DNA from: Thermodesulfobacteriaceae bacterium
Lineage (GTDB): Bacteria; Desulfobacterota; Thermodesulfobacteria; Thermodesulfobacteriales; Thermodesulfobacteriaceae
Direction of reading: 5' to 3'
DNA: 60,241 nucleotides
Assembly: GCA_025062245.1 (NCBI GenBank)
Contig: JANXAD010000006.1
Coordinates: 1-60,241 of the forward strand
The position numbers and the translations under genes are program-made. The notes under the pieces are model-generated. The model did no database searches. It was not told the origin of the DNA and was given only the letters and a program-made list of their open reading frames with translations. Positions 22,343 to 29,615 of the stretch are shown here, piece by piece. The stretch's first letter is position 1, and every line of letters begins with the position of its first letter.

Positions 22343-22855
22343 ATGGCTAAAAAGGGAGATAAATGGATTCGTCATACTTGGGAGTTTGAAACCAGTGAAG
22401 ATCCCTATGCTATGAAATCTGCACCCTCAGGCGAAGCTATATGTCCAAGATGTAAAGCTATTTTCAAAGATAAAAGATGGTTTACCGATGAAGAACTTTA
22501 TGAAGAACTAAAGGAAACTGAAAATGTTCCTCATATCATTTGTCCAGGATGTAGAAAAGCTTTAGAACAATATGCTATGGGGTATTTATATCTTTCCGGA
22601 AATTTTTGGAAAACCCATAAAGAAGAAATCATGAAACTTATTAACAATGAATATGAAAAAGCACGAGGTTTAAATCCTTTACATCAAATTATCAGTATAT
22701 ATGAGGAAGCCGAAACTACAGTTATAGAAACCACTACCGATCAATTAGCCCAAAGATTTGGACGGGCTCTTTACAGAGCCTATAAGGGTGAATTAGAATT
22801 TAAGTGGTCTAAGGGAGATAAATTAGTTAGAGTTTATTGGTCCAGAGAAAAATAA
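22343..22855 (+). CDS. BCAM0308-like zinc-ribbon protein
   Basis: A 170-residue protein with two Cys pairs, AICPRCKAIFKDKRWF and HIICPGCRKALEQYAMGY, which form a zinc-ribbon-like site. A C-terminal alpha-beta part follows (EAETTVIETTTDQLAQRFGR, GELEFKWSKGDKLVRVYW). This agrees with the small conserved BCAM0308 family, whose function is unknown to me; the N-terminal layout resembles NMD3-type ribbons. A good AAAGGGGG site precedes the ATG. It lies between the radical SAM and cation exchanger genes, all on the plus strand. Confidence 0.75.
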   Translation: MAKKGDKWIRHTWEFETSEDPYAMKSAPSGEAICPRCKAIFKDKRWFTDEELYEELKETENVPHIICPGCRKALEQYAMGYLYLSGNFWKTHKEEIMKLINNEYEKARGLNPLHQIISIYEEAETTVIETTTDQLAQRFGRALYRAYKGELEFKWSKGDKLVRVYWSREK

Positions 22856-26697: not shown

Positions 26698-26725
26698 TTG
26701 AAAAATTATTTAGAGAGGATATACT
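26698..26725 (+). promoter_or_regulatory. Putative promoter of the peroxiredoxin gene
   Basis: TTGAAA at 26698-26703, a 16-bp spacer, then TATACT at 26720-26725. The ribosome site AAGGAGGT lies about 24 bp further, followed by the ATG at 26761. The intergenic region is shared with the divergent ychF gene. Confidence 0.5.
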
Positions 26726-26760
26726 AAAATTAATAAAATTTCTAAATAAGGAGGTAGATT

Positions 26761-27375
26761 ATGTGTTTAAGACCTGGATTAAAAGCTCCTGAGTTTGAAA
26801 TAATAGCTTATTTTCCTGATGGACAGGTTAATATCGTTAAACTTTCAGATTATAAAGGAAAATGGTTAGTTCTATTTTTTTATCCTGCAGACTTTACTTT
26901 TGTTTGACCCACTGAGATGGCAGCAGTAGCTGCTAAAGCTAATGAACTTAAAAGATTAAACGCTGATTTATTGGCCATAAGTATTGATACTGTATTTGTA
27001 CATAAGGTTTGGCAAGAGATAGAACTTAGTAAACTTATACCAGGTGGATTTCCCTTTCCTATGGCTTCAGACCCTGCTGGAAAAATAGGAACTCTTTATG
27101 GAGTATATGATGAAAAAGCTGGTATAAATTTAAGAGGTACCTATCTTATCGATCCTGAAGGAATTGTGAAAATAGTCCAGATTTATGATGCTCCTATAGG
27201 AAGAAATTTTGATGAAATGATAAGAATGATAGAAGCAGCTCAACATGTTAAAGCTACTCAAGGTTCTGAAGCCTGTCCTGCCAATTGGAAACCTGGAAAA
27301 AGTACTTTAAAACCTATGCCTGCACTGGCAGGAAAAGTTCATGAAATTTGGAACCCCTCAGAGCTTGATAATTAA
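26761..27375 (+). CDS. 2-Cys-type peroxiredoxin with in-frame TGA (probable selenocysteine) at the active site
   Basis: An AhpC/Prx1-type peroxidase that reduces peroxides. Start ATG at 26761 follows AAGGAGG. The frame reads [12 protein letters not shown] through [13 protein letters not shown], then TGA at 26905-26907 (codon 49), then [14 protein letters not shown] and on without a break to TAA at 27375, about 204 residues. The family motif is FTFVCPTE, so TGA sits exactly on the peroxidatic Cys. The resolving Cys is present (ACPANW, residue 172). A hairpin 12 bases past the TGA fits a bacterial SECIS. Selenoprotein peroxiredoxins are known in other bacteria. A simple nonsense mutation is the alternative, but the rest of the gene is undamaged. 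Ordinary gene callers would start at 26917. Confidence 0.88.
26905..26934 (+). promoter_or_regulatory. SECIS-like hairpin after the in-frame TGA
   Basis: TGA at 26905-26907 is followed by 12 bases and then GCAGC (26920-26924), loop AGTA, GCTGC (26929-26933), extendable by a G-U pair. A short stem with GU in the apical loop about 11-12 bases from UGA is the layout of bacterial SECIS elements such as that of fdhF. Confidence 0.65.
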
Positions 27376-28214: not shown

Positions 28215-28696
28215 TTTTCAAAAATTTTTTCAATTTTTAACAAAATAAGTAATCTATCCGGCAATTGGTAGACCCTATCTATATATTCCTTTTTCAAACC
28301 CTCTACCCTTTCAGGAGGAGGTTCAAGTTTAGAAAGGGGCACCTCTAAAATATCTCCTATTTTTTCTATAACAAAAGAGACAGGAGTTTCTTCCTCAGCT
28401 TTGATAATCAAATTCAACTTAGGTTGAACTTGAGCTTTTAACTCAAGTTTTTTAGTAAGATCTATCACAGTAAGAATTTCTCCTCTTAAATTCATAATTC
28501 CTAAAATATAATTTTCAGCCAAAGGAACAGGAGTAATATCTAAATCTTTATTAATTTCTACCACCTTTTCCGCAGGGATTCCAAAAAGAAAAGGGCCCAA
28601 ATAAAAGGTTACTAAAGTTAAAGTTTCCCTAAAAGCAAAAGTCTTTTTTTCTTCAGGTTTTACTAAAAAACTCTCTTCACTTTTAGCTATTTCCAT
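28211..28696 (-). CDS. cheW: Chemotaxis adaptor CheW
   Basis: CheW couples chemoreceptors to the kinase CheA. The 161 residues contain the CheW fold: TFYLGPFLFGIPAEKVVEIN, TPVPLAENYILGIMNLRGEI (the classic NLRG motif), LTVIDLTKKL and SFVIEKIGDILEVP. An N-terminal tail of about 25 residues is extra. Its start overlaps the DnaJ-like gene by 14 bp. It is the last gene of the 19-kb flagellar/chemotaxis run. Confidence 0.93.
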   Translation of the reverse strand: MEIAKSEESFLVKPEEKKTFAFRETLTLVTFYLGPFLFGIPAEKVVEINKDLDITPVPLAENYILGIMNLRGEILTVIDLTKKLELKAQVQPKLNLIIKAEEETPVSFVIEKIGDILEVPLSKLEPPPERVEGLKKEYIDRVYQLPDRLLILLKIEKIFEN

Positions 28697-29615
28697 TTAT
28701 TCCTCCCCTATGTTTTTCTAATAAATTTTCCACTGCCTTAGCAATCAAAGTTTTGCTTTCTTCTGGTATTTCTAAAGGAACCACGATACGAAAATCTATG
28801 TAAAAATCTCCCCTTTTTCCATGAGACAAAAAAGGACCTCTTCCCTTAAGAATTATAGGAGAGTCTTGAATAAAATATTTAGAATCAATTTTTTCTTCCC
28901 CTTCTAAGGTAACCACAGTTATTTCTTTCTTTAAAATCACTTCCCAGAAAGGAATCTTACATTTGTAAAGTATATAATTCTCCCTTAGCTCAAAAAAAGG
29001 ATGGGGTAAAATAGTTACCTCAAAGTATAAATCGTATAAAGAATCTACCAAGTTCTTATCTAAAAAAAGTATTTTTCCTTCTTTCAAACCTAAGGGTATT
29101 TCAATAAAAATCTCCCTCTCTTCCCTTATTTTTCCTTTCCCTCGGCATAGACTACAAACTTCTGCTATCAAAAATCCCTCTCCCTTACAATAGGGACACT
29201 TTAAAAAGGTTTCTCCTTCCTTTCTTTTATCATAAATTTTAACATATCTATCTCCTTTACAAAAACCGCAGTAATTTTTCTTACCCTCTTTATTTTTTCC
29301 ACTACCCTTACAAGCTTCACAAGTCTTTTCCTCAACAGGAATTTTTATCTTTTTAAACCCTCCTAAAGCTATCTCCTCTACCGTAAATTCTAAAATAGAA
29401 AAAAGATATTTTCCCTTAAAGGAACAGGTATCCTTTACCTCTACCCTTTGAAAACAGGAGTGATTTTTCAAATATTTAGAGACCTTTTCGTACCAGTTCA
29501 TAAATTCTAAAAATTCTTCCTTATTTCCACCTCTATCAGGATGTAGGGATTTTATCCTTTCTCTAAAATAATGCTTTAATTCTTGAAGGGAAGAAAAATT
29601 ATTTAAATCCTTCAT
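28683..29615 (-). CDS. DnaJ-like co-chaperone in the chemotaxis operon
   Basis: A 310-residue divergent DnaJ. The J-domain is short but keeps the HPD tripeptide that stimulates Hsp70 (RIKSLHPDRGGNKEEFLEFM). The Zn-finger region has four cysteine repeats, CEACKGSG, CGFCKGD, CPYCKGEG and CSLCRGKG, and the C-terminal substrate-binding domain follows (ILPHPFFELRENYILYKCKI, ILKGRGPFLSHGKRGDFYID). It lacks the usual Gly/Phe linker and starts only 5 bases after cheA. Location between cheA and cheW suggests a dedicated role in folding or localising chemotaxis proteins, which is inference. Confidence 0.85.
   Translation of the reverse strand: MKDLNNFSSLQELKHYFRERIKSLHPDRGGNKEEFLEFMNWYEKVSKYLKNHSCFQRVEVKDTCSFKGKYLFSILEFTVEEIALGGFKKIKIPVEEKTCEACKGSGKNKEGKKNYCGFCKGDRYVKIYDKRKEGETFLKCPYCKGEGFLIAEVCSLCRGKGKIREEREIFIEIPLGLKEGKILFLDKNLVDSLYDLYFEVTILPHPFFELRENYILYKCKIPFWEVILKKEITVVTLEGEEKIDSKYFIQDSPIILKGRGPFLSHGKRGDFYIDFRIVVPLEIPEESKTLIAKAVENLLEKHRGGINGNS

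Follow-up and report, generated by a model that had tools for sequence, protein, structure and literature searches.

A PrxU-family peroxiredoxin of the 2-Cys type, predicted to contain selenocysteine encoded by an in-frame TGA

The NCBIfam model NF040737 describes what we take to be the selenocysteine (Sec) peroxiredoxin PrxU of Eubacterium acidaminophilum. Sohling et al. 2001 is cited on this organism in PMC8533274. The portion of PMC13188914 that we consulted lists Sec peroxiredoxins with the motif TxxU and quotes the motif PxxxTxxU, and 43 Sec peroxiredoxin genes from Sargasso Sea data are mentioned in an excerpt of PMC1088965. Sec peroxiredoxins are an established family and the gene described here is a further member, a point on which the initial annotation of this DNA was silent. 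Like PrxU, the gene has a proposed Sec codon at the peroxidatic position within PxxxTxxU (P42, T46, TGA49) and scores above the family cut-off. It keeps Cys172 and lacks Cys39, unlike most of the Sec proteins that we examined. With the typical 2-Cys peroxiredoxins (rat and human Prx1, AhpC) it shares the active-site motif, the fold as judged by sequence, and the resolving Cys172, but differs in that a Sec codon replaces the peroxidatic Cys. Judged from sequence comparison, the gene almost certainly encodes a Sec-containing 2-Cys-type peroxiredoxin of the PrxU family, in which UGA codon 49 is read as Sec.

Gene, reading frame and active-site residues

The window, by which we mean the whole stretch of 60,241 nucleotides that was analysed, is contig C66 of a draft genome of 1.63 Mb (89 contigs, 93% complete). 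The locus contains the following features.

26761..27375, forward strand: PrxU-type peroxiredoxin gene, 204 codons including Sec49, stop TAA at 27373-27375 (read-through translation, NCBIfam NF040737, Pfam AhpC-TSA)
26905..26907, forward strand: in-frame TGA, proposed Sec codon for residue 49 at the peroxidatic position (direct reading; alignment to the Cys of solved peroxiredoxins and to TGA/TGY in relatives)
27274..27276, forward strand: codon of Cys172, the resolving cysteine (sequence; alignment with solved 2-Cys peroxiredoxins)
26748..26754, forward strand: Shine-Dalgarno sequence AAGGAGG (direct reading)
26698..26725, forward strand: sigma-70-like promoter match, weak evidence (7 in the region against 3.4 expected)
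26918..26935, forward strand: bacterial SECIS-type hairpin, 7 bp, loop AGUA, 17 nt from TGA to loop (fold; fixed place and covariation among TGA genes)

The TGA at codon 49 of 204 is the sole interruption of the frame and lies in the context PADFTFV-U-PTEMA of the read-through translation. It aligns with the peroxidatic Cys, and Cys172 (context EACPA) with the resolving Cys, of solved 2-Cys peroxiredoxins (1qq2, E 4e-48). Of the hallmarks of typical 2-Cys enzymes, the resolving Cys near the C-terminus is present as Cys172, and TGA stands in place of the peroxidatic cysteine. The AAGGAGG sequence sits 6 bases upstream of the ATG at 26761. The initial annotation had described an intact frame with a single TGA, the placement of this TGA at the peroxidatic Cys of an FTFV-x-PTE motif, a resolving Cys at residue 172 and a strong ribosome site, and each of these descriptions was borne out. 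It had also named a promoter. A TTGAAA-16-TATACT match does exist, but it carries little weight because the region holds 7 promoter-like sites against 3.4 (sd 1.9) expected. The predicted truncation by standard gene calling was reproduced by a mechanical ORF listing under table 11, which called 26917-27375 alone (152 aa).

The protein matches Pfam AhpC-TSA at 125.8 bits and 1-cysPrx_C at 29.8 bits. With C written for Sec, the read-through protein scores 278.9 bits against NF040737, just above the cut-off of 270, in an alignment that covers only profile positions 37-232 of 233. A six-frame search with the same model gave 273.8 bits for the locus, also above the curated 270-bit cut-off, and each of the 12 other NCBIfam families listed for the protein falls below its own cut-off. 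Four frames in the window are interrupted by a TGA with at least 30 codons before it and at least 60 after; the peroxiredoxin frame has 48 + 155, and the other three have 31-43 before and 62-71 after. Elsewhere in the window, the product of 28683-29615 has the C-terminal and central domains of DnaJ and no J-domain match, its gene being flanked by CheW-like and CheA-like genes, and 22343-22855 is a 170-aa frame with no Pfam match at E 0.001.

Sec machinery and the hairpin downstream of the TGA

A genome search for selA, selB, selC and selD, as the initial annotation had proposed, found all four. The tRNA-Sec gene scores 85.4 bits (cut-off 47) and has the anticodon TCA; a second match just above the cut-off is a tRNA-Ser. 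SelB reaches 378.5 bits (cut-off 242.25) and contains the winged-helix domains SelB-wing_2 and wing_3, SelA reaches 606.4 bits (cut-off 267.9) and SelD 337.2 bits (cut-off 125). The SelD frame (L018) has one internal TGA in the context AAG-TGA-ASKLP; the 55 bases from this codon onward form a hairpin-containing fold of -15.5 kcal/mol, and SelD is likely a third selenoprotein of the genome. A second is probably a formate-dehydrogenase-like frame with one TGA (L161, G000:C88:33696-36464), which matches its family in several pieces at 227.8 against a cut-off of 666; the 55 bases from this TGA fold at -20.3 kcal/mol.

In the peroxiredoxin gene, the hairpin stem pairs 26918-26924 with 26929-26935 around the loop AGUA (26925-26928). 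The 5-bp core 12 bases after the TGA with GU in its loop, which had been noticed at the outset, is present, but the full stem is 7 bp long and begins 10 bases past the TGA. The consulted portion of PMC13188914 gives bSECIS limits of 3-9 nt for the loop, 4-16 bp for the stem, G in the first two loop positions, a spacing of 16-37 nt and an energy of -7.5 kcal/mol or lower. The hairpin lies within the four limits of that model, with a 4-nt loop, a 7-bp stem, 17 nt from UGA to loop and -10.3 kcal/mol; its loop has G in the first two positions, followed by U, and no difference from the model as given in that portion was found. Folding of the RNA after the TGA, a check that the initial annotation had suggested, gave this hairpin, but taken by itself it does not exceed chance expectation (40-nt fold, z -1.15, with an equal or better fold in 30 of 200 shuffles). 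Among synonymous re-codings of the window sequence alone, the complete 7-bp stem arises in 24%, and the inner 5 pairs together with a loop GT in 34%. The argument for the hairpin therefore rests on comparison within the family.

For this comparison, the geometry was fixed from the window's hairpin (offsets 13-19 with 30-24, loop 20-23) and applied to 59 distinct stretches after codon 49 (L021-L080, identical ones removed). These comprise 43 TGA stretches, including the window's and a broken copy from genome G400, and 16 Cys stretches, including 5 distant AhpC-like homologues. The TGA genes, which are related and so not independent, form the inner 5 pairs in 43/43, have GT at loop positions 21-22 in 43/43 and average 6.95 of 7 pairs. 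Among the Cys genes, the inner 5 pairs occur in 1/16, GT in 4/16 and both together in 0/16, with a mean of 4.88 of 7 pairs. Synonymous re-coding of the same proteins gave a mean of 5.47 pairs (sd 0.16) and a highest value of 5.95 in 2000, against the observed 6.95. Thus, the Ala-rich protein sequence favours a hairpin, but less strongly than is observed in the TGA genes. Covariation is seen across the 43 TGA genes at pair 14-29 (T-A 18, C-G 12, G-C 9; non-standard in 2), pair 15-28 (T-A 28, G-C 14, A-T 1) and pair 17-26 (A-T 21, G-C 18, C-G 2, T-A 2).

A control in which the two sides were slid against each other was not clean. With the 3' side moved by -3, TGA stretches keep 5.44 of 7 pairs and Cys stretches 4.5, probably owing to the three-base periodicity of repeated Ala codons; the remaining slides leave TGA stretches with 2.5-3.3 pairs. 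We added a test on 80 further loci outside the set that defined the geometry, 4 with TGA and 76 with Cys. The 4 TGA genes come from other phyla, in records named Calditrichaceae, Syntrophomonadaceae, Aggregatilineales and Deltaproteobacteria; all 4 carry a loop GU and form 6 of 7 pairs (mean 6.0), and the strict inner stem forms in 1 of them. The Cys genes have GU in 6/76, the inner stem in 1/76 and both in 0/76, with a mean of 2.7 pairs. The outcome of this test is only partly favourable.

Conservation of the TGA and competing readings

A phylum sample of 395 genomes was searched with NF040737, giving some match in 358 and a match above the cut-off in 130. A TGA occurs in many of the matches listed; as this list gives stops without location, the position was checked in the 30 best-scoring loci, and codon 49 is TGA in 30/30 of these. 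Because matches can extend upstream of the start codon, the stop counts of this search were not taken as proof of Sec; in genome G309 the TGA in the match falls outside codon 49, which encodes Cys. Within the window's own family, 25 of 30 genomes contain a match to the protein. Codon 49 is TGA in the closest copies, from G395, G128, G398 and G289 (82, 81, 79 and 77% identity), and in 7 more at 57-69% identity (G396, a second copy in G289, two copies in G327, G404, G180, G345), a total of 11 further family copies 57-82% identical to the window protein. Two different TGA-bearing PrxU-like genes adjoin each other in G289 (G289:C11:100706-102002, L055/L076).

Codon 49 is TGC or TGT in 11 orthologues (G412, G383, G399, G407, G409, G309, G408, G410, G397 and second copies in G128 and G395) and in 5 distant homologues. 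The alignment of orthologues at this site, another check raised by the initial annotation, displays the Cys/Sec pair at one column, in 45 Sec and 92 Cys rows. SelA is above its cut-off in 27 of the 30 family genomes, and the three misses are 64-72% complete. The best tRNA-Sec match scores 79-86 bits in 15/15 family genomes that were chosen because they carry a Sec or Cys copy, a count based on scores and not on anticodons. The occurrence of Cys copies in Sec-using relatives implies that Sec is not required for function.

We consider it very improbable that the gene was inactivated by a nonsense mutation and is now decaying. The points in favour of this reading come from the window's genus: among its 14 genomes, an open TGA copy is found in 4 (the window's counted) and no close homologue in 9, 5 of which hold only a distant AhpC-like protein. 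The remaining genome, G400, has a copy (L070/L080, C42) with the same TGA plus another stop and a frameshift, which is either broken or misassembled, in a genome that holds selA and a tRNA-Sec match. Decayed relatives had been named in advance as grounds for doubt; one such copy was found, but the 11 other family TGA copies are open over the aligned stretch. Against decay also stand the recurrence of this TGA in open copies that are 57-82% identical, the covariation of the hairpin in TGA copies and the pattern of substitution, in which amino-acid changes are few and third-position changes many on both sides of the TGA. Relative to 4 close relatives, dN is 0.156-0.175 for codons 1-48 and 0.121-0.147 for codons 50-204. 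Substitutions relative to L052 by codon position number 9/6/23 before the TGA and 19/13/78 after it, mostly at third positions. NG86 dS values were high (0.97-3.7) or could not be computed, so that only dN and these counts were used. Such conservation of codons 1-48 would not be expected if the gene were truncated or decaying.

Equally hard to credit is that the TGA is a real stop and that a working 152-aa protein, shortened at its N-terminus, starts beyond it. An open frame does run from the ATG at 26917, but its product would lack residues 1-52, including the peroxidatic position, no clear ribosome site was read in the sequence ahead of 26917, and codons 1-48 are conserved. A sequencing or assembly error that turned TGT or TGC into TGA, conceivable in a draft of many contigs, is very unlikely given the same TGA in many independent genomes, among them G128, a single contig listed as 100% complete. 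All three readings were rejected. The original proposal of a probable selenoprotein is supported by the Sec machinery, the conservation of the TGA in relatives, the covarying hairpin and the PrxU score above cut-off.

Resolving cysteines and implications for Sec peroxiredoxins

The steps proposed for the gene and its product build on the mechanism of 2-Cys peroxiredoxins and on SelB-dependent Sec insertion. SelB would bring Sec-tRNA-Sec to the ribosome by binding the hairpin 17 nt downstream of UGA codon 49, which would then be read as Sec; the genome encodes both the components of this system and the conserved hairpin. By analogy with the 2-Cys mechanism and from the conserved residues, Sec49 would attack the peroxide and become a selenenic acid. 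Cys172, probably that of the partner subunit, would resolve this to a selenenylsulfide, which a thioredoxin-like protein may then reduce.

We calculated a tree from 137 protein rows (45 Sec, 92 Cys) with a midpoint root, after removal of duplicate rows, short hits and the broken copy from G400. On this tree 4 Sec/Cys changes are required, and well-supported branches force at least 3 of them. The window copy groups with the Sec copies of its own family, a group that also contains the Cys copy of G412. Replacement of Cys by Sec is described as a general trend in the part of PMC1794560 that we consulted, which has peroxiredoxin among the Sec families and includes several Deltaproteobacteria.

The Sec copies examined at positions 39 and 172 (window numbering) include L021-L050, L061, L079 and L083-L085. 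Cys172 is kept in 11 of the 45 Sec rows, the window's included, and absent from 34. Cys39 is found in 33 of the 34 Sec rows without Cys172, against 3 of the 11 with it, a ratio that is no census because the 30 top-scoring phylum loci favour one type and the rows are related and not independent. The window protein has Cys172 and no Cys39, and Cys39 occurs in 4 of the 92 Cys rows. Both cysteines are present in the Sec copies L068, L069 and L082. L061 (G404), from the window's genus, is a Sec copy with neither, possibly a one-Sec enzyme. We suggest with some hesitation, as the less likely side of the question, that Sec peroxiredoxins have two resolving layouts, the classical Sec49-Cys172 pair in a minority of the rows examined, the window's gene included, and Cys39, ten residues before the Sec, in most of them. 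Cys39 may then be a new resolving position or reflect a different reductant, and L068, L069 and L082 may be intermediates. A narrow search of the selenocysteine and peroxiredoxin literature did not meet this pattern.

The locus adds a well-supported Sec peroxiredoxin, of which a mechanical table 11 reading leaves a fragment that lacks the active-site residue. Closely related Sec and Cys copies occur in one family, and twice in a single genome (G128, G395), so that the two chemistries can be usefully compared in a natural setting. The pattern of Cys172 and Cys39 raises a testable question on how Sec peroxiredoxins are resolved.
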